Shown one piece after another: positions 4,563 through 53,600 of a stretch of 64,000 bases of DNA. This DNA is from Thozetella sp. PMI_491 (Eukaryota; Ascomycota; Sordariomycetes; Chaetosphaeriales; Chaetosphaeriaceae), in assembly GCA_021432635.1 (NCBI GenBank), contig MU270052.1, positions 62,001-126,000 on the forward strand. Direction: 5' to 3'. Within the stretch, counting starts at the first letter, position 1. Every line of letters starts with the position of its first letter. The notes below the pieces were generated by a model that made no database searches, had not been told where the DNA came from, and was given only the letters and a program-made list of their open reading frames with translations. The translations under genes were made by a program, and so were the position numbers.

Positions 4563-5892
4563 TCAGGTCGTCCCCGTCTCAGTGTCTGTCGACTGCTCAG
4601 CCTGGTATGAGCTTGTAGGTCGCAGCGGCAAGCCCGCTTTCGCATAAGCCAGATCGATCATGCGCATCTGCGAGATGCTCTCGTCGTGGGTTATCCACAC
4701 GCCACTACCCTCTCGCCCCTTAAGTTTGTTGATGAATTCTTCCAGCTGGTAGCGGTATGACAACCAATGCCGCTCGCTCGGCCGGTCGATACCCGCTTCC
4801 TTGAATGTATATGCCTTCCTGCTCTCCTTGGACTTCCATTTCTTTACAGTCGCGCCGGTCTCCGCCTGGCGCACCTCCCACGCGTCCTCAATATCGATCC
4901 GGTGCCAGATGTTGCTGATCATAAAGTTATGCAGCGAGACCTTCCGCGTCCGAAGTTTCTCTTGCCCCTCCGGCAAGCTAAGGTCTGCCACCAGCGTCGG
5001 TCGATGTCGGACCTCGACCTTGGGGGGTTGCGCCAGCGTCTCCCCCATCGTTGGCTGTAGGTTCCCGTGCATCTCAGCGGTGACGCCGCCGGGGAACTTC
5101 CATGCAGCATCGAAGCGGACGTCGCAGAGCTCATGAGGCGGTGGCAGCGTCTTGCATACGCAGTCGATACACATCTCCGGCTCGGCGTCTAGGATGGTCC
5201 GGATCACATTGCACGTGTACGTCAGATCCATCATACCACCACCGGCGAGGTCGTATCTGAATCGAATCTCATCCGCCTTGGTGACCATGGATGGCGGTCC
5301 GAACGCGCGAGTCCATATGTGCGCAATATTTGGCCGGTCCAGCAAGGACATGAAGAGCAGCCATGCCGGCTGGAAGCGGTAGTGGAACGCTTCGAGCAAG
5401 ACCGGTGCGTTGGGGCTTTGGAAGAGCGGCGAACGGAAGAGCGACACAGCCTCTGTGGAGTTGGAGACGGATGGCTTCTCTAGCAAGACGTGCTTCCCCT
5501 TGGCCAGCGCCTTGAGCGTCCACTCGTAGTGCAAGCCGTTGGGCAGCGGGATGTACACAGCATCGATGCCCGGGTCGTCTAGGAGAGCCTGGTAGCTGTC
5601 GTGGACCTGCGGGATACCGTGCTTTTTAGCAAACTCGGCTGCCTTCTTCCTGTCCCGTGCCGCCACCGCCTGCACGACCACCTCGGGGTGCTGCTTGGCC
5701 GGCGTGATGATGGCTGATGGGCTGCGGTTCCATGTTAGTGGGTCCCGATTGAGACATGCCTTGAGCCCGCAGACCCCCAGCGACTTACGCGATCCGGGCC
5801 GCACCCAGGAGGCCGAACTTTATTACATTGTCGGCCTTGGGCGGCGTCGGATAGGAGAACAGAATCTCCCAGCTACGACTGACGAATCCCAT
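4563..5892 (-). CDS. Gfo/Idh/MocA family NAD(P)-dependent oxidoreductase (dihydrodiol dehydrogenase-like)
   Basis: Exons are 5892-5789 and 5721-4563, giving 420 aa. The intron 5788-5722 has donor GTAAGT and acceptor GCAG and joins GAARIA to PSAIITPA. The N-terminal Rossmann fold shows the dinucleotide motif GLLGAARIAP at about residues 28-37, and the family motif EKP sits in HVLLEKPSVSN. The C-terminal half fits the GFO_IDH_MocA C domain. Homologues include trans-1,2-dihydrobenzene-1,2-diol dehydrogenase and NADP D-xylose dehydrogenase, so a sugar or diol substrate is likely but unproven. No signal peptide is obvious, so it is probably cytosolic. The start at 5892 is the last ATG before the Rossmann strand; a longer upstream open frame exists but looks non-coding. 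It converges on the GH92 gene, with about 250 bp between stops. Confidence 0.9.
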
Positions 5893-16905: not shown

Positions 16906-17996
16906 TCACAAGCTTTTCACCCGCTCTGAAAAAGCCTCTAGCTCTTCCTTTCCTATTGGGTAGGTATGCTCAGCAGACGGGTACTGCCGGCTCTTCACGT
17001 CGTCCCGGTATGCTTCGATGGCTCTCAGGCTCTCTCCCCATACGTCACCATACTTCTTGACAAACTTTGGTAAGAATCTTCCGGGTGGGAAGTTTCCCAG
17101 CATGTCGACTCCAACGAGAACTTGGCCCGAGCAGCCATTCCCGGCACCGATCCCTATCGTCGGGATAGACAATTTCTCGGTGATCAGGGCAGCAATCTGG
17201 GGCGGCACGGCTTCGAGAACCACTGCGAAGCATCCGGCTTCCTGGACAGCAAGAGCATCTGCTAGGACCTTCATGGCTCCGTCAGAGGTCTTGCCCTGAA
17301 CTCGGAAGCCCCCGAGGGCGTTTTGGCGCTGCGGTGTGAGGCCGACGTGGCCCAACACAGGAATGCCCACGCTGGTGATCTTGGCGATCGTAGGCGCCAT
17401 CTCTTTCCCGCCTTCGAGCTTGATGCTTTGGACGCGGCCCTCTTTGATAAAGCGGATGGCCGTCTCAAGTGCCTGGGCCGGGGCAATCTCGTAGGAGCCC
17501 ATTGGGAGGTCACCCACCTGCAGGGAAGTTAGAGCCGCTCCAGACCGACCGACAGACGGACAGACATGTCTATACGATGCAAGTACAGAAGGGGCGGGAG
17601 TCTCACGGTGAAGGCCGACTGGGTCGCGCGAGCAACAGATCGACAGTGCAACAACATCTCTTCAACGAGGACCTCGCTTGTATCCTCCATACCGAGGGCG
17701 ACCATCGCCAAACTGTCGCCGACGAGAACCATATCCATCCCTGCCGCATCGGCGACGTGGGCGCTAGGAAAGTCGTGTGCTGTGAGCATGGTGATTGGCT
17801 CGCCCTTTTTATGCATTGACCGCAAGGTACCAAGCGTGACTTTCTTTCGCGTGGTGGCAGATTGTGCACCCATGGGTGAGTGGGAACTATGCCTTGTCTG
17901 CAGAGCCGACAAGAGCGGTCTGGCAGCGAACAAAGATGGTCGCGTGCCTTGCACCAGGGCGGCGCTTGTCCGGGCCAGTGAGGAGGAGAGGTACAT
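16906..17996 (-). CDS. panB: 3-methyl-2-oxobutanoate hydroxymethyltransferase (ketopantoate synthesis), mitochondrial
   Basis: First step of pantothenate and CoA synthesis: 2-oxoisovalerate plus methylene-tetrahydrofolate gives ketopantoate. Exons are 17996-17607 and 17517-16906, giving 333 aa. The intron 17606-17518 has donor GTGAGA and acceptor CTGCAG, and joins TQSAFT to VGDLPMGSYE. The first about 45 residues are rich in Ser, Arg and Ala without acids, fitting a mitochondrial presequence. Family motifs are clear: MLTAHDFPSAHVADAAGMDM, VLVGDSLAMV (metal-binding Asp), GHVGLTPQRQNALGGFRVQG and GIGAGNGCSGQVLVGVDMLG. The start at 17996 is the ATG just before the presequence. It is divergent from UBC8. 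Confidence 0.95.
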
Positions 17997-19700: not shown

Positions 19701-20726
19701 ATGAGTTCACCACGACGCCGCATCGAGACTGACGTACGTGATACCGCCGCCCTCCACCAGTACTAGGACATGCTTAGGCCTTGATACTCACCACTGTCGC
19801 TCCTGGTTTAGGTCATGAAGATGTAGGGCACCTGGCCACACGACCAGCCGCCGAAGCGAGGCTAACTCTTCCTAGGCTGATGAGCGACTACGAGGTCACT
19901 CTGGTCAACGACAACAGTGAGTTCCAGGCCTCCTCTTGTCACTAACGAAGCTTGTTTTGCTGACCTCAGCAGTGTAAGCCGCGATTCACGCGTCCAGAAC
20001 GAAAATGAAGGCTTACACAGGAACAGGCAGGAATTCTACGTCCGGTTTAAGGGACCAACTGAGAGTCAGTCTAGCCTGAAACCCCCTGAGCAGTCTTCTG
20101 CGAATTCTCACTCACACTGCTCCAGCTCCTTTCGAAGGAGGTCTCTGGAAAGTCCACGTCGAACTCCCCGACCAGTACCCCTACAAGTCCCCGAGTATCG
20201 GCTTTGTTAACCGAATTTTCCACCCGAATATCGACGAGTTGTAAGTGCCACGGACCCTACTTAAGAAGAAGAAGCAAGGCGCACAGCTGGGTCGCCCGGA
20301 GGCTATATTAGGCGAACTAGAGAGCTGATGGCCCAGCAGGTCGGGATCGGTTTGCCTCGATGTCATCAACCAGACCTGGTCGCCCATGTTCGACATGATC
20401 AACATCTTCGAGGTCTTCCTCCCACAGCTACTGCGGTATCCCAACCCCACCGACCCTCTAAATGGCGAGGCCGCTGCGCTCTTGATGCGTGAGCCCAAGG
20501 CCTACGATGTCAAGGTGAAGGGTAAGGCCCAGAGAACACCTGGACTGCACTCAAAGCAAAGCAGAACCTAACACAGACCAACGCAGAGTACGTTCAGAAA
20601 TACGCGAGCAAAGACGCCGCAGATGATGCAGGTGCGGAATCCGAGGATGACGATGACATGTCGTCGGTGGCTAGCTTCGGGGACGAGGAAGACGAGGAAC
20701 CGGCGGGCCAGATGGACGATGTATAA
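19701..20726 (+). CDS. UBC8: Ubiquitin-conjugating enzyme E2 UBC8/UBE2H, highly fragmented gene
   Basis: E2 enzyme that in yeast acts with the GID/CTLH ligase on gluconeogenic enzymes. The frame needs eight exons: 19701-19733, 19812-19822, 19876-19916, 19973, 20027-20064, 20126-20240, 20340-20521 and 20587-20726, total 561 nt and 186 aa. Exon 2 is 11 nt and exon 4 a single T. All seven introns begin GT and end AG (donors GTACGT, GTAGGG, GTGAGT, GTAAGC, GTCAGT, GTAAGT, GTAAGG). The protein begins [20 protein letters not shown], shows [20 protein letters not shown] with catalytic Cys85, and ends in an acidic tail ([20 protein letters not shown]) typical of UBE2H. Exon 6 and 7 borders are supported by the conserved [17 protein letters not shown] and [12 protein letters not shown]. 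Only the microexon region is unsettled. Confidence 0.92.
19812..19822 (+). other. 11-nt microexon of UBC8
   Basis: Coding exon GTCATGAAGAT between acceptor TTTAG and donor GTAGGG. It supplies V-M-K and two bases of the next Met, giving ETDVMKMLMSDYEV. Skipping it shifts the frame of everything downstream. Confidence 0.8.
19973..19973 (+). other. Predicted single-nucleotide exon (T) of UBC8
   Basis: The base T lies between acceptor CTCAGCAG (ending 19972) and donor GTAAGC (starting 19974). With A from the previous exon and G from the next it makes ATG, giving VNDN-M-QEFYVRF. Without it, joining 19916 to 20027 shifts the frame and soon meets a stop. If the upstream AG at 19969 is used instead, the exon is CAGT (4 nt) and encodes T-V in place of M. 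Confidence 0.65.
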
Positions 20727-21268: not shown

Positions 21269-22372
21269 TCAATCTGAGTCGGAATCATAGCTCACCAGAG
21301 CCGGTGCAGCCGCGGGTTTCGCTTTCACTTCCGGAGCAGCCCCGGGTGGTTCGTCAGGTTCATCGACGGCTCGTTTCCTCTTGATGCCGGGTAGCCGAGT
21401 TGGGCCCCTCGCAGCTTCCTTGCTTCCGAGGATAAGGAAGGGATCCTTAGCCACCCGCGTGTTCGCCGCGACCGCCGATGCCAATGTCTCCCGCGTCTTC
21501 AACGCCACCATCTCGGTCTTCAGCTTTCCCCTCGATCTTTCATCGGCTTCGGCCCCCTTTCGAATGTTCCCGCCCGGCCCTGCAGTATCGAACAGCGGGC
21601 GGGACAGCATCTTGTCCAAAGTAGCATCGCCTTGTTCCAGCGCGGCGGTTCCAAAGTCCACCAACGCAGCCCTCCTAGAGTCGTCTTCCGTCCCCGGCAG
21701 CAGGTCGATTCCCAGGCTCATCCGGTCTTTCAGGCCCTCCGCGGCTATCGCCTCCTTCTCCCGTTCTTTCCGCCCGGACCGGAAGGCCCGCCGCAGTTTC
21801 TGGTTCTGCGTGTACGGGTCTTCCCAGTCTTTGGCAGTTGCGTCCTGGAGCTCCTCGATGCGCAGCTTAGCGTGCTCGAGCTGGGCGCGGTCGGCGATGG
21901 TCTTCTCGAGGTTCGCAAACGCGCTCTCGCGCAGGTCCTGGCGCTCCCGCTCCGTCACGATGGCGAAGTCGCCGCTCTTGACCAGACTGTCCCCGTCCTT
22001 AGCCTCGCCCGTGTCTCGCTTCTTCGCGCCGGACACTACCACGTACGCCGTGCTCTGCGGGTCCGTTCGTATCTCGATGGTGCCGCCACACGCCGTGTGC
22101 CGCATTCGAAAGGTGTAGATGGGGGTGCTGTAGTAGTTGCCGGTCTTTTTCTTCTCCGCGTTGAAGCGCACGCCTTGGCCAATGATTGTCTCCTTCGGAC
22201 ATGTTGAGCACCAGATCGCGAAAGGCATCTCGAACCGCACTGTAAGGCCGCCGCCTTGTGAGCCGAGCTTGGAGGCGCGCGCGCCGAGGGGATGTTTCTT
22301 GTGCAACGCATTGCCAGATTTGACGCCTTCTTGGTCCGGCGGGACGTACCGCCCCATATTGAAGCCCTGCAT
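21269..22372 (-). CDS. CWC16 family splicing factor, CCDC130/Saf4 type
   Basis: Intronless gene of 367 aa. The N-terminus carries the YJU2/CWC16 (DUF572) domain: MGRYVPPDQEGVKSGN, then WCSTCPKETIIGQGVRFNAE with a C-x2-C pair, and FRMRHTACGGTIEIRTDPQS, which supplies the remaining zinc ligands. The HTACGG form and TDP-x-x-TAYVV context match the CCDC130/Saf4 branch rather than Yju2 itself. The middle is a charged helical region (about residues 150-215), the C-terminus has a nuclear-signal-like KRKRAV and ends in an acidic SYDSDSD. The family acts in the spliceosome around the first catalytic step and helps discriminate introns. The ATG at 22372 opens directly into the conserved domain. Confidence 0.93.
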   Translation of the reverse strand: MQGFNMGRYVPPDQEGVKSGNALHKKHPLGARASKLGSQGGGLTVRFEMPFAIWCSTCPKETIIGQGVRFNAEKKKTGNYYSTPIYTFRMRHTACGGTIEIRTDPQSTAYVVVSGAKKRDTGEAKDGDSLVKSGDFAIVTERERQDLRESAFANLEKTIADRAQLEHAKLRIEELQDATAKDWEDPYTQNQKLRRAFRSGRKEREKEAIAAEGLKDRMSLGIDLLPGTEDDSRRAALVDFGTAALEQGDATLDKMLSRPLFDTAGPGGNIRKGAEADERSRGKLKTEMVALKTRETLASAVAANTRVAKDPFLILGSKEAARGPTRLPGIKRKRAVDEPDEPPGAAPEVKAKPAAAPALVSYDSDSD

Positions 22373-29666: not shown

Positions 29667-30179
29667 TTAGAGCATGCCTACGACGCCGATGAGCGCGGCG
29701 GCGGCCATGCCCATGGCAGCAACGCCGGTCTCGCGAGGAGCCGCAGCATTTTTGGTTCCCGCGCAGTCGGGCAGATTGAGGACCTCGGTGATCTCGGCGG
29801 CGGCGACATCGGAGGACTTGGAGGCACAGACGGTGAGCGACGACAAGATGTCGGCGTGCGACTTGAAGGCCGCATCGAGGCCGGACTTGTACGAGCTGAG
29901 CTCAGACTGAATCGAGGTGGGAGCGGCGCGGATGGCGGCGCAGGCGTCCGTGGCGGTAGCGGTGGACTGGGAGTCTGCGTACGAGAAGAAGGCCGGGTCT
30001 GTCGGGGTCGGCACGGCAGCGATGACGGACAGCGCATCGTAGTAAACCGCGTCGCAGCCTGTGAGGCCCGAGTCCGAGGTGGCACGGGGCGCGAGGTTGG
30101 CAACGGGCACATTGGGGAACGGGGCGACGGCGGCCATGGCGGCCGAGGCAGCGGCAAGGAGGAGGACCTGGGTCTGCAT
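29667..30179 (-). CDS. Small secreted GPI-type protein, paralogue A
   Basis: Intronless, 170 aa. The ATG at 30179 opens a signal peptide (MQTQVLLLAAASAAMAAVA). The mature part has four cysteines, in GCDAVYYDAL, DACAAIRAAP, TVCASK and PDCAGTKN, and is rich in Ala, Ser and Thr. The C-terminus PRETGVAAMGMAAAALIGVV is a short polar segment then a hydrophobic tail ending GML, as in a GPI signal. It aligns along its length with the gene at 31590-32108 (same cysteines, AVPTPT, APTSIQSELSSYKS, PRETG). Function unknown; such proteins often sit in the cell wall or are expressed in infection-like structures in related fungi, which is only a recollection. Confidence 0.75.
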   Translation of the reverse strand: MQTQVLLLAAASAAMAAVAPFPNVPVANLAPRATSDSGLTGCDAVYYDALSVIAAVPTPTDPAFFSYADSQSTATATDACAAIRAAPTSIQSELSSYKSGLDAAFKSHADILSSLTVCASKSSDVAAAEITEVLNLPDCAGTKNAAAPRETGVAAMGMAAAALIGVVGML

Positions 30180-31589: not shown

Positions 31590-32108
31590 TTATAGCATGC
31601 CGATTGCGCCGATCACCGCGACGACGGCGGCGCCTATGGCAATCGCCCCTGTCTCCCGCGGCCCGGCGTTCTTGGTCCGGGACCCTGTTGGCGCACCAGT
31701 GCAGGCAGTGACGTGGAGGATGGGATCTATGATGGTCTTGAGGTCGGGGTCCGCCGCACAGCTGCTGACCTTGGTCACTAGCTCCGGCTTGGCTTGCACA
31801 TCCGAAGCAACGTGCGATAGGTAAGATGAGATTTCGGGCTGGAGTGAGCTCGGAGCCGCGCTGAGGATGCTGCACGGGTCGTCGATGCCGGACACGCTGG
31901 AGACGAAGGAACCCGCGGCACCGGTCAGGGTCGGCACTGCGGTGATTACGTCCAGTAAGGATGCAAGGACGGTGGTGCAGTCCGCGAAAGCGTCTGTCGA
32001 GGTGGAGGAAGGCGGGCCCGAGGTCGTCGTGGTCTGGGCAGCTTGCCGGGCTTCCAGCGCTAGTACTGCCGGGGCCGCCGCCAGAAGGCCGATGAACATG
32101 CTCCGCAT
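31590..32108 (-). CDS. Small secreted GPI-type protein, paralogue B
   Basis: Intronless, 172 aa, ATG at 32108. Signal peptide MRSMFIGLLAAAPAVLALEA. Four cysteines fall in FADCTTVLAS, DDPCSILSAAP, VSSCAADPD and VTACTGAP, matching the positions in the gene at 29667-30179. Shared blocks include ITAVPTLT, APSSLQPEISSYLS and NAGPRETGAIAIG. It ends in a hydrophobic AAVVAVIGAIGML, again a GPI signal. It has the same orientation as paralogue A, so the pair probably arose by tandem duplication. Function unknown. Confidence 0.75.
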   Translation of the reverse strand: MRSMFIGLLAAAPAVLALEARQAAQTTTTSGPPSSTSTDAFADCTTVLASLLDVITAVPTLTGAAGSFVSSVSGIDDPCSILSAAPSSLQPEISSYLSHVASDVQAKPELVTKVSSCAADPDLKTIIDPILHVTACTGAPTGSRTKNAGPRETGAIAIGAAVVAVIGAIGML

Positions 32109-47667: not shown

Positions 47668-50600
47668 TCACGACAGATGGAAGGCTCCCTGGCCCTCCTT
47701 GATAGCGGTAAATAGTCGCTTCTTCATGATGTTAATGTCGGTATAGTCGGGTAGTTTGAGATAGTTGACGCAAGTCATCACGCTCGGGAGGTAGTCGTCC
47801 GACGTGTAAGGCGCCTCACTGGGCTTGCACACCACCGTAAACATGGGAGTCAAGCTCCGGAAACCTGCCAATCGTTAGCTTTCTCTCCTCCGCCACACTA
47901 TACAACCAACGCAATACATACCGCCAATAGGCAGCTTAGGGCTGCCGGTCGTGAACTGTAGGAAGTCCCTGCGCTCGCTGAGACTCAGTTCGCTCATGGC
48001 CTGGAGAAGGTTCTTCACGCTCTTGCTGTCCATGTTGTAACCATGATCAGCTTTAACCGAATCCATAAGCGCTGTTATCGTGCGTTAGCTTGTATAATCG
48101 AAGAAGAGGGCGACTGGGGTGCTCGACTTACTCTCAAGACTCCAGTCTTCGTCAACGCGCCCGAAGAGGCTGCAAAGCTCATCGGGGGTGAAGGCGCTCA
48201 AGGCCGAGTAAGGGAAGACCTGCGAGAAGCCGACGCGGAACGCATCCACTTGGCGACGCACACCGCTCCCCAAGGTCATGTCGATGACTTTCTCCAGGTA
48301 GAGGTCAACATTCTCGATGCTCAGCTTGACCTGCGAGCCATTCGGAATGAGCTCGATCTCGGGGAAGCCCGGCAGTGTGAAGTCCAGGTAGAGGTCATCG
48401 ATCTTGATCTTGTCAACTACAATGTTCTCGGTGTCGGTGACCTTCTGGGCTGGTGTCCGCGCCGGATCCTCGTCGATCTCCTTCTTGGCTGTGGCAAACT
48501 TCTTGATAAGCATCAACGACCGCGCAATGACGGGGTCGACGGATTTGACAGCCCCAAGGGATGGTCGAATGCTCGTGGACTCGTCCCCAATACGGAAGAA
48601 GATAGGGTTCAGGTTGATATCGATGATGCGCGAATCGAGCATAGATCTGGCAACAAATTTGCCCAACATCTTGAAGAGCTGGAGCACCTTTTCTCCCTCT
48701 TCGGACGCTGCATACTCGTCGCTCAGCGGTCGTGGGAAGAGGCCGGTCTGGCCATTCACGAACTCGTCGTCTCCGCTAGCATCGCTGTCGCGCCACAGCC
48801 TCAGCTTCTTCTTCGCAAACTCTTTAGATACAGTCGAGTAGAACTCCAAGGTCGGCCCGAGACCCGTCCCGACCTCCTCGAAATACTCGACTTCCAGGAT
48901 GCTCTGAGAGGCCCCGTACAGCTCCATGACTTTCACCGCCGACTCGAGGATCTTGGACCGAGAAATCCGGACCTTCTGTCGCTGCAGCCGCCCCAGGAAC
49001 GGCCGCTCGTCGCGGCGATCGCGGCGGTTCTCCTCTTGAGACTGAGCGTTCTGCCACCGGCTCATAGACCTTGCGTAGCCGAACGACGTGGATTGAAGAA
49101 AGAGATGGCGGGTCTCGAACGGGAAGAGGAAAGGATAGAGCCTAGCCAGGTCCTCGCTCCAGCTCGGCAAGCAGTTGCTTGCCACGATTAGCGGCTCCTC
49201 CAGTTGCCGGTTGAGCTTCGCCGTGAGCTTGGTATTGACGAACTGGGATAGGGGCTCCACGTTAAGCTTGATTGTCTCCTTGTTCTCTACGATGACATCG
49301 TCGATATTTGCGTTCAAATCGTGTAGCTTGTTTAGGAGGCGAAGGATTGACGCAGTGGTAGGATGCCGAGCGAGTGACCCAGGGGTAGATGATTCCTCAG
49401 TATCCATACTAGCATCAAAGGAGGCGCCGAAGGCGATGGACTCTGGAGGCGGAGGCCCCGGAACGCGCTTAAATTTGACGGTATGCACGGCAGACCAGAG
49501 GCTACGGTTCAGGGTGTCATCTGGGGACTGTGCTGAACTGTGGACAGCACGGTAAATCGTCGTCTCGTTGGGAATCACCTTGCTCTCAATGCTGAATTCA
49601 ATGTGCCAATCTTGAGGCACGGCCTGGATAGCGGCAGCATACGACATTGGCCGTGAAGGTGCGGATGGGGTCGGGGTGCTTTGCAGGGCCGCTGCTAGGG
49701 CGCTCATGCGACTAGGCAGGTTACTGGTGGTCCGGGTCTGGGAAGGAGTCGGCACGCGAGTGCCATCCTCCTTCCTCGCTGTGATCTTGCCTCCAGCAGC
49801 CACCTCCATGTTCACGGCTGTCGGATCCGGGGTCGGAGCGTCGTCCATGTCGTCGTCCAGGTCTCGGAGCACATTCAAAGCACTTCCCTCGCCGAGGTCC
49901 TCATCGTCGTCCGAGAGCTGTTTCTCATCGGCGCATTCGAGTGCATTGGCCAAATCATCATCGTTGTCAGGCGGTGGGGGCGGAGGTGGGGGAGAAGTGT
50001 CAGATCCTGCTTGACGGCGGCTAGACCGGCGAAGAACAGCCTTCTCCCTTGCGTTTGATGGCTCGGGGGTGGACGGTGTCTCGGCCAACGGCTGCGTCTT
50101 CGAGCTGGACTTCCGGGCGGAGCGGGACGCAGATGACTGTGGAGGGGCGACTGGCGGTGGTGCTGGGGTGGAATTGCCCGACGGGGGTTGAGATCGGTCC
50201 ACAAGCCTCGCAGCAGCGGCACTCAGTGGTAGGCCCGTGGATCCAGCCATGGCAGCGAGGGCTCGGGACACGGCATCAATCCGCTTAGAGCCGCGCGGTC
50301 GCTCAGACAGAGCAATCCGGGGCCTCAGATAGTCGTCGAGAGACTTAAAGGTCGTAATAGCGTGGATCGTAACCATGATATTACGATACGCCCTGGGAAT
50401 GTCGGAATCATCGTCGGCCACCAGCTTGAGGCGAATCTGCTTCGCGAGCATCGATGCAGCGCTGATCCGGTTGCCATCAAAAGTATTGTGATGGACGGTG
50501 ATGACCTCGAAGTGCTCCGATCGGCTTAGCAGATCCTGCAGTTTGTGAATCATCACACTCATCGGCGTCGTTGGCGACTCCGCCGTGGCGGTCTTGGGCC

Positions 50601-53600
50601 TCGACTTGACCGAGTAGCCCATGAAAACCTGCAGGAAGGCTGATTGGGCCTCCGCTGCAAGTTCCTGGTCAGGATTGCTAAAAACCTCCTCAAGCACGCG
50701 CACGACCCCTGACGCTAGCAACTCAGCGCTTGTGACGCTCTCCAGTACATCGGAGTCGAAATAAGACGCGAGCTGGGTGAAGAGAGCGGCACCATTTTCG
50801 GGCGCGAGGTTGGCCGAGGTGCGGTGAAGATAGAATGCTTCAATATCAGCTGCGAGTGTCGAGAGATTGGTGAGTATCTTCATAGCTTTCTTCTTCATGC
50901 TCTTGCCCTGCTTCTCGGTCTCGTGGGTCTCCAGGAACTTCTTGGCAACTTCAGTGATGCGTGCCTTCATGGACGGGATATCGGCGACGAAGTGCCGAGG
51001 CGGACCATCGATTGACATAGTCGAACCCTCGCTACTAACAGGAGAGCCAGACATGTCGTCTCGGTGGTGATCATGCTCGTTTTCATACTCATCGTTGCCA
51101 TCTTCGTCGGACTGGTCCTCTTTGTCGTCTTCCTCGTCACCGTGATCCCCGTGCTCAGCCTCACCCTGCTCCCCATCTTGGCCGTCGATCACCACGTCCG
51201 AGTCCGAGTCATGCCCGTCGGATGGCTCGCCCGGGTCCTCAGCAGGGGTCTCCACGACCGAGTCGTTGCTGTTACTTCGGGCTGGCTTCCGTTCCAGTTC
51301 GGGCTCAGCAGTAGAGAGCTTGGTGATCTCGGTGATGACGCCTTCCCTGTAGAGCTGGTAGCGGTATACGCTGTCCAGCCTGCTCATTAAGAGCTCTGTG
51401 GCCTGCAGGGCAAACATGACCAGGGTTGGGTGGTCTTGCTGGGAGAGGATGGAAGCGAGAAACGAGGCGTACGGCACCGTTTTGAGAGCCTCGACTAGTA
51501 TGTCCTCGTCTAGGTTGGACAGCATCTTAAGTTGAGCTGTCAATACCTTCTGGCGCACGCTAAGGTTCACAGTGCTGGAGAAGGCGTCCGTGAGGGTAGG
51601 GAACAGGATCAGGGCAAAGCGACGGACTTCGTCCTTGCATCCCTCTAGCAGCTCTATGCGCTTCTCATTAGTCGTGGTCTTCCTAGGCCCCATTGAAGAG
51701 GGCGTGATGGGCTCGGGAGGCGAATGGACTTCAACGAAGTCGCCCGACGCAGGATCCGCAGCTTTTGGTAGATTCGGGAGGAGCTCGCATATGACGTTGA
51801 GCGTCTCGATAATCTGGTCGCGTGGGCGGTGGATGAGGGCCTGCATTATGAGAACACTGTCTAGCTTTGAGGCGACATCCTCTGTGCCGCTCGGCGGGGA
51901 AACCCCTGTGAGAATCTGATAGAGCGTCTCTACGACGTTCATCTGGAAGAGCTCAGCCGACAGGCGAGGGCTCGCTCGGGCTGTAAAGGCCAGAACGCGG
52001 AGGAATTGGGTGTGAATGTTGGGCCCGATCAGGTTCGTGGTGCCAGGCAAAAGGAGGCGGAGGATCGTCCTGAGGAGGCCCACACTGACGAGTTCCTCGA
52101 GTCTCTGAGGCTGATACTTGAAGCTCTCGACGATCCGGGAGACGCAGAGCGATGCCTGCTCAACCACACGCTGATCGCTGCTGCCAAGTACCTGGAGAAG
52201 AGTAGGCATCACGTCTCGGATGACTGGGAATGAGTCTTCGGGGATGTTACGGCAGCAGTTGGCCGCAGTAGTGACGGCAACACGCTGCGTGCTCGTCGCA
52301 AAAAACTCAAGGTACGAAAGACACGCTGTCAGACCACCCTCGCGTACGATGCTTGCTGGGTACTCAACCGAAATCTTCTCCAGTGTGCTAAGGGCTTGTT
52401 CCGCGAGGTCGATAAACGAAATCTCGAGGAGCTTTTGGCACAGAACGGGAACAGCCCCGCCGTAGACGACATTGGCAGTGCTAGGAGGAAGAGCCTCCAT
52501 CAGGTTGGCCAGGCACCGGCAGGCGAGGAGCATGATCTCTGGGTTCTCCTCGCCCGTGAGCTCGTTTGGCTGCATCAAGGACACCAGCTCCTTGACGAAC
52601 GAGTCCGGAGAGAAATGGCCGGATAAGTTGTCCTCGTTTGAGACCAAGAGGATCTCCGAGAGCTCCTGGAGCGCTATGAGCTGGATCGACGGGTCGTCCT
52701 TTTGCCGCAGATTGCTCAGAATCTCCCGTAATCTAGACGATATGCCCGACATCATGCCCGTCAGCGCGCGGAGGGTGCTGGAGAGGCCGTGGCCAGGCCC
52801 TCCTGGCCCGCCAAATCCGCCAAATGGATCTTCATCTTCATCGTCGTCACCCTCGTAGCGGTGCCCGTCCTCGTCCTCGTCCTCATCCTCGTCCTCGTCT
52901 TCCTCCTCGTCATCGTCGTCATTCTCGTCGCTGTCATCGGCACTCGAATGGTCGTCAGGAGGTGGCGGCGGCTGGGGGATGGTGTCTTTCTCCTGCTCCT
53001 CCGTCCCCGCCATCACGACATCTTGGTCCTGGGCATCGTTTGTTGGCCGCTTCGACCGACGGGCAGAGCTCGAGGCTGAGGCTGGTTCTTTTAGTTGGGC
53101 GGTGAGATCGTGGTTGGCTCTCCTGGTTGAGGGCCAGCACGTACCTTGACCACTCTGGGCACTCTTCTTAGTCCGACTCGGTCGACGGCTAGACGAGGTT
53201 GAGGGTATGGCATCCGAAGCAAGGTTAGGCTCGGTGGGGGTCCTAGGGCAATAGGCCGTCAGCATCAGTTGGCTCTGTGGGAAAACCGCGAGAGCAGGGT
53301 AGAGGAGCATCCAACGTACTCTGGACTCGACATAGTCGCTGCAGCCTTTCCCTTCCTCGCACGTGCAGATGTGGCCGGGGCGGCAGAGTGGATGGGAGGA
53401 TGTTGCGGCGGGTGTGCTATCCGCTGTCGCTTCGAGCGTCGAGAAGGCTGTTCTGCAGAGGCGTCAGGCGGACTCGGCTCGGCTTGCGTCTTCCGCTTGC
53501 GAGTCGTCGATGGTTGGGGCGGGGCGGGTGTGGTGGGAAGGACTGCTCCCGAGGCAGCGGCGGCCGATGGGGTCGATGAGGCTGCCTGTGCTGCTTGTCG

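Follow-up and report, generated by a model that had tools for sequence, protein, structure and literature searches.

Exons of a single nucleotide have been described in very few nuclear genes. In the portions of the published reports available to us, three such genes are in print: APC11 (PMC4674806), VPS55 (PMC8831610) and CYP621A (PMC12940212). A preliminary description of the locus studied here had spoken of very few genes and named Arabidopsis APC11 as the case; that gene is indeed known, but it is not the sole one, as VPS55 and CYP621A have been published too. The CYP621A exon of Fusarium is, according to its authors, the first one-nucleotide exon in a fungus; in the available text its base is a G (AG-G-GT), found in 20 to 24 genes, both figures being given there, and covered by 18 RNA reads from two species (PMC12940212). 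In APC11 of Arabidopsis and other land plants, the base is an A lying in a 422-nt interval, and the exon was proven by GFP fusions and cDNA (PMC4674806, PMC8831610, both seen in part). VPS55, likewise a plant gene, has some lineages with and without the base in the part of the report drawn on here (PMC8831610).

Here we describe a further, probable case in the window, that is, the whole 64,000-nt stretch of contig MU270052.1 of Thozetella sp. PMI_491 that was analysed, which belongs to a genome of 72 Mb in 157 contigs. A gene for a UBC8/UBE2H-type E2 enzyme occupies positions 19701-20726 of the forward strand, and its product of 186 residues is read without interruption from the following exons.

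19701..19733, + strand: UBC8 exon 1, 33 nt; start codon after GCCACC; aligns with yeast Ubc8
19812..19822, + strand: UBC8 exon 2, an 11-nt micro-exon; matches yeast ETDVMKLLMSD without gaps
19876..19916, + strand: UBC8 exon 3, 41 nt; last base is the A of a split ATG codon
19973..19973, + strand: UBC8 exon 4, the predicted single nucleotide T, middle base of ATG (Met29)
20027..20064, + strand: UBC8 exon 5, 38 nt; first base is the G of the split ATG codon
20126..20240, + strand: UBC8 exon 6, 115 nt
20340..20521, + strand: UBC8 exon 7, 182 nt; contains the catalytic cysteine region
20587..20726, + strand: UBC8 exon 8, 140 nt; acidic tail and stop codon

The introns between them measure 78, 53, 56, 53, 61, 99 and 65 nt. 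The 11-nt and 1-nt exons thus both lie in UBC8, within about 160 bp of each other.

A search of the protein against Pfam returned UQ_con (PF00179) only, with 133.3 bits. In a comparison with structure chains, for which the query carried one mistyped residue, the top three matches were 8pmq_E (ubiquitin-conjugating enzyme E2-24 kDa), which we take to be yeast Ubc8, and two chains named E2 H. Residues 1-102 align to 8pmq_E without gaps. The cysteine block aligns with chain 2z5d_A (E2 H), its cysteine presumably being the catalytic one, and the tail is rich in D and E. By its best matches and UBC fold family on the one hand, and its cysteine block and acidic tail on the other, the protein is a predicted member of the UBC8/UBE2H class of E2 enzymes. 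Within its own genome no second close copy was found: among the best candidates scored, 18 matches comprised three exons of UBC8 itself and 15 weaker matches elsewhere, at 30-53% identity. Exon 1 is absent from the UBC8 model of our trained gene finder, which starts at an ATG inside exon 2 (19815), so that homology is the basis for exon 1 and the first intron.

Several other genes were noted in the window. The convergent gene next to UBC8 (21269-22372, - strand) encodes a protein of the Saf4/Yju2 family (PF04502, 225 bits). Yju2 is a splicing factor, and its position beside UBC8 is probably a coincidence. On the other side, 16906-17502 (- strand) encodes a ketopantoate hydroxymethyltransferase (PF02548, profile positions 85-258 of 259), whose N-terminal part probably lies in a further exon outside the predicted model. 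A large predicted protein of about 1,820 residues (47668-53310, - strand) presumably resembles HECT E3 ligases of the Ufd4/TRIP12 kind, judging by eye from its first 400 residues only. Two small proteins of about 170 residues, predicted to be secreted or anchored (29667-30179 and 31590-32099, - strand), share a similar layout with PRETG near the C-terminus, and are perhaps a tandem duplicate.

The interval between exons 3 and 5 spans 110 nt. Joining 19916 directly to 20027 gives a 560-nt coding sequence that loses the frame and terminates after 98 residues; with T19973 included, the sequence is 561 nt long and open through all 186 residues, exon 3 ending on the first base of a codon and exon 5 opening on the third. 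The resulting VNDN-M-QEF aligns without gaps to NDS-M-QEF of yeast Ubc8, and the Met that the preliminary description ascribed to other UBC8 proteins is borne out in one fungal homologue, where it stands opposite the yeast Met. Three more distant homologues carry Leu, Thr and Val there, which indicates that what is conserved at the split codon is the position, not the letter. According to the genetic code, a T at 19973 yields Met, the residue of yeast, while the other three bases would yield Lys, Arg or Thr; Thr is found at this position in one of the four homologues aligned.

The two introns and the tandem acceptor between them have the following features.

19917..19972, + strand: predicted intron 3a, 56 nt; GTGAGT...CTGACCTCAGCAG; branch A at 19963 within GCTGACC, 9 nt from the intron end; tandem acceptor CAGCAG
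19970..19972, + strand: second CAG of the tandem acceptor; intronic in the 1-nt form, exonic in the 4-nt form CAGT
19974..20026, + strand: predicted intron 3b, 53 nt; GTAAGC...CTTACACAGGAACAG; branch A at 20015 within GCTTACA, 11 nt from the intron end; acceptor GAACAG

The letters and coordinates reported earlier, a complete acceptor to 19972, one T and a complete donor GTAAGC from 19974, are confirmed. EST-supported branch motifs of Fusarium include CTTAC, and the median intron there is 57 nt in the part of the source consulted (PMC5677156). To score the signals, we used a gene finder combining order-4 coding statistics with donor, acceptor, branch, branch distance and intron length. It was self-trained on about 313 kb of the same genome, made up of the window, five joined 40-kb blocks and 15 loci (L005-L019, of which L011 and L012 overlap), and the training set held no UBC8 intron. 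Four rounds of training yielded 71 predicted genes with 123 introns of median length 64 nt, with GTAAGT-like donors and a GCTRAC branch mostly 9-20 nt before the end. Against these 123 introns, the total score of intron 3a exceeded 54.5% and that of intron 3b 37.4%; the acceptor at 19972 is weak, at the 11th percentile. The second donor (19974) scored 5.33 in its genomic context and 5.98 once intron 3a was removed.

Applied to UBC8, the trained model picked exactly 19917-19972, the T and 19974-20026, followed by the later introns. This reproduces the path proposed before, in which removal of 56 and 53 bp leaves exon T, makes ATG and restores VNDN-M-QEF, with a frame of 186 residues. Before any training, the starting model likewise recovered the T exon, yet it extended the following intron to 20093. 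The trained model shows no tendency towards tiny exons: out of 107 internal exons predicted on both strands of all the sequence, unfiltered, two were of 12 nt or less, namely the T exon and a 7-nt exon. The latter lies at about 5445-5451 (- strand) of another sampled locus (L032), as an internal exon of a 2226-nt coding sequence.

We then enumerated in-frame solutions for the interval, restricted to GT-AG introns no shorter than 40 nt, with a minimum donor score and a first intron above -10. Among the 46 solutions obtained, 29 of them nested, the one-nucleotide exon ranked first by splice signals (4.40 nats), CAGT second (2.05) and the best single intron third (-2.84, with loss of conserved residues). 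When the training introns were bootstrapped, the 1-nt form beat the 4-nt form in 200 of 200 replicates, with a median lead of 2.45 nats (95% range 0.84-3.96), and it did so equally (200/200) against the in-frame single introns 19895-19997, 19917-20010 and 19921-20026 and against the frame-shifting 110-nt intron, although the latter has decent signals (19917-20026, score -0.05). GC-donor readings were enumerated among the weaker sites and rejected. A U12-like intron was rejected as well, there being no RTATCC between 19877 and 20064.

The earlier statement that the 110 bp cannot be one intron is correct when donor 19917 is paired with acceptor 20026, but poor sites do allow single introns that stay in frame, for example 19921-20026 (GTTCCA, giving SE) or 19917-20010 (GAAG, giving SLHRNR). 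Such introns leave no stops in the reading frame, yet they score -8.52 and -3.45, respectively, against 4.40. No training intron has a donor as poor as that of the former, and 97.6% of them exceed the latter in total score. Both also insert residues where the yeast alignment is gap-free, and we consider a single intron of this kind highly improbable. With a profile of four homologues, the 1-nt form scored 259.1 bits, the 4-nt form 255.8, the SE form 253.9, the SLHRNR form 248.4 and the frame-shifted form 15.2. The Pfam score of the 4-nt form was 132.0 bits, close to that of the 1-nt form, and the protein profiles would thus favour the latter slightly. Of the features that mark a single-nucleotide spliceosomal exon, three are found here: no in-frame join with good sites, complete introns on both sides and restoration of a conserved codon.

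The closest competitor is use of the first AG of CAGCAG, which would give the 4-nt micro-exon CAGT and the protein NDN-TV-QEF. This variant exists as the preliminary description had it, with T-V in place of the Met; it is in frame, comes second in the ranking and differs little in the profile scores. NAGNAG acceptors of the training set used the second AG twice and the first AG twice, and so favour neither. The distance from the branch point speaks against the 4-nt form. From the best branch A (19963, GCTGAC), the first AG ends at a distance of 6 nt and the second at 9 nt, and AGs 5-8 nt from the branch were beaten by AGs 9-22 nt away in all 12 training introns where the frame settles the choice (in one of them only in part), these introns having been called by the same splice model. 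The 4-nt variant is disfavoured on this ground. In the four frame-neutral training introns, the far AG was chosen in three and the near AG in one. Branch distances of 9 and 6 were each used by 1 of 104 training introns with a good branch, and a branch-like CTAAC further upstream (A at 19945) would favour neither AG over the other. The extra residue of the 4-nt form is not present in any of the four aligned homologues, and every bootstrap replicate preferred the 1-nt form. We therefore regard CAGT as unlikely to be the main exon.

To estimate how often such a structure would arise by chance, we kept donor 19917 and the final branch and acceptor, and replaced the 84 nt between them. In a first run, the observed double-intron score was reached by none of 5,000 shuffles and none of 5,000 genomic pieces. 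In a larger run with 100,000 sequences of each kind, a one-base exon reached it once among dinucleotide shuffles and twice among random genomic pieces; the counts were 1 and 0 when the base had to be T, and 2 and 3 when the exon could measure 1, 4, 7 ... 28 nt. The looser mark set by the score of the 110-nt single intron was reached by 35 shuffles and 44 genomic pieces per 100,000. An AG-N-GT split (halves of at least 40 nt, first half above -8) was found in 2 of the 24 training introns of at least 85 nt, both with totals below -11. With about 5,500 introns of at least 85 nt in the genome, a rough extrapolation would give about 0.05-0.1 chance look-alikes.

These counts also bear on the possibility that the assembly lost a base at an exon edge and that the 110 nt form one ordinary intron. 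The signals of that intron are usable. Against this, the loss would have had to fall within the split codon itself, the flanking exons match yeast Ubc8 up to that codon, and the double-intron signal, matched by just 1-2 in 100,000 null sequences, would be left unexplained. A lost base is thus very unlikely.

Stwintrons, in which an intron is nested in a splice site of another and the whole is one contiguous excision, occur in filamentous ascomycetes according to the parts of the literature consulted. They combine an in-frame contiguous excision with an internal intron that splits the external splice site. Here, contiguous excision from 19917 to 20026 is out of frame, and the best of the 29 nested in-frame solutions scores -4.16 nats against 4.40 and removes conserved residues. 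The probability that we assign to a stwintron is accordingly close to nil.

As to the origin of the two introns, intron 3b was considered as a duplicate of 3a and rejected, their alignment score of 1.0 being equalled by 45% of 2,000 random pairs drawn from 53 introns of 48-62 nt. Against simple letter shuffles (mean -8.2, sd 3.3), the contrast seemed stronger, we think on account of the end motifs that real introns have in common. Dispersal as a repeat was likewise rejected: 19700-20300 matches its own genome once, at itself.

Taken together, it is highly probable that the 110-nt interval consists of two short U2-type fungal introns with the exonic T19973 between them. The message very probably contains this one-letter exon, and we infer that the cell makes use of it. 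Removal of the 56-nt and 53-nt introns would join A19916, T19973 and G20027 into the ATG of Met29 and keep the E2 frame. Each half would fit intron definition, being short and having its own donor, branch and acceptor. Introns 3a and 3b would be removed sequentially, because U1 bound to the donor at 19974 (about -3 to +6) would overlie the AG of the first acceptor (19971-19972). With sites that overlap in this way (AG-T-GT) and U1 clashing with the factors of the first acceptor, one intron would have to go first, and this could be either 3a or 3b.

Minor products are also conceivable. The 4-nt form, with T-V replacing M, may occur, as may an exon-skipping, frame-shifted form. Given the decent signals of the 110-nt intron, skipping of the T may even be common; since it leads to an early stop, the skipped form would be unproductive. 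A more far-reaching proposal, which we regard as rather doubtful, is that UBC8 of filamentous ascomycetes has long carried a conserved T exon and that CAGCAG-T-GTAAGC acts as a three-way switch (Met, Thr-Val or the skipped form, the last being removed by nonsense decay) setting the dose of the enzyme.

No one-nucleotide exon of UBC8 turned up in literature listings on one-nucleotide exons, fungal micro-exons, UBC8 introns and stwintrons, with subscription papers mostly outside their scope. No fungal relative of UBC8 was found in viral_contigs, where one pattern matched three stretches, none related, and a second search gave no match, nor in genome_contigs, where the matches were three bacterial or archaeal loci at 29-35% identity.

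The predicted T exon of UBC8 adds to the very small known class of one-nucleotide exons. A one-base exon shows that the spliceosome can dispense with an exon body, each site having to be read from the intron side in sequential reactions, and a fungal housekeeping gene would give a simple system for testing removal order and acceptor choice. Annotation without the T exon would here produce a broken UBC8 protein, and aligners of short reads overlook a one-nucleotide exon unless the annotation supplies it (PMC8831610). The one-base exon of placozoan cox1 is mitochondrial and not spliceosomal. It resembles the present case in its length of one base, as far as the consulted part of the report goes (PMC5436844). 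Stwintrons of filamentous ascomycetes, as described in the available text, likewise consist of two touching short U2 introns with necessarily sequential removal, but keep no exonic base between them, whereas UBC8 would keep one; a term search of the text of three stwintron papers did not find micro-exon terms. In the portions of the plant reports at hand, VPS55 shares the one-base micro-exon and has a conserved GTRAGT donor, though in another gene (PMC8831610), and APC11 is alike in having a constitutive, frame-restoring one-base exon in a gene of the ubiquitin pathway, although it encodes an E3 subunit and UBC8 an E2 (PMC4674806, PMC8831610). CYP621A, again by the available text, differs from UBC8 in its base, that of UBC8 being a T (AG-T-GT) in an E2 gene, with a tandem CAGCAG acceptor and predicted in one genome; the two agree in belonging to nuclear genes of filamentous fungi, in the loss of frame without the base, and in the place of the base, which is the middle one of its codon (phase 1 followed by phase 2) and falls within a conserved motif (PMC12940212).
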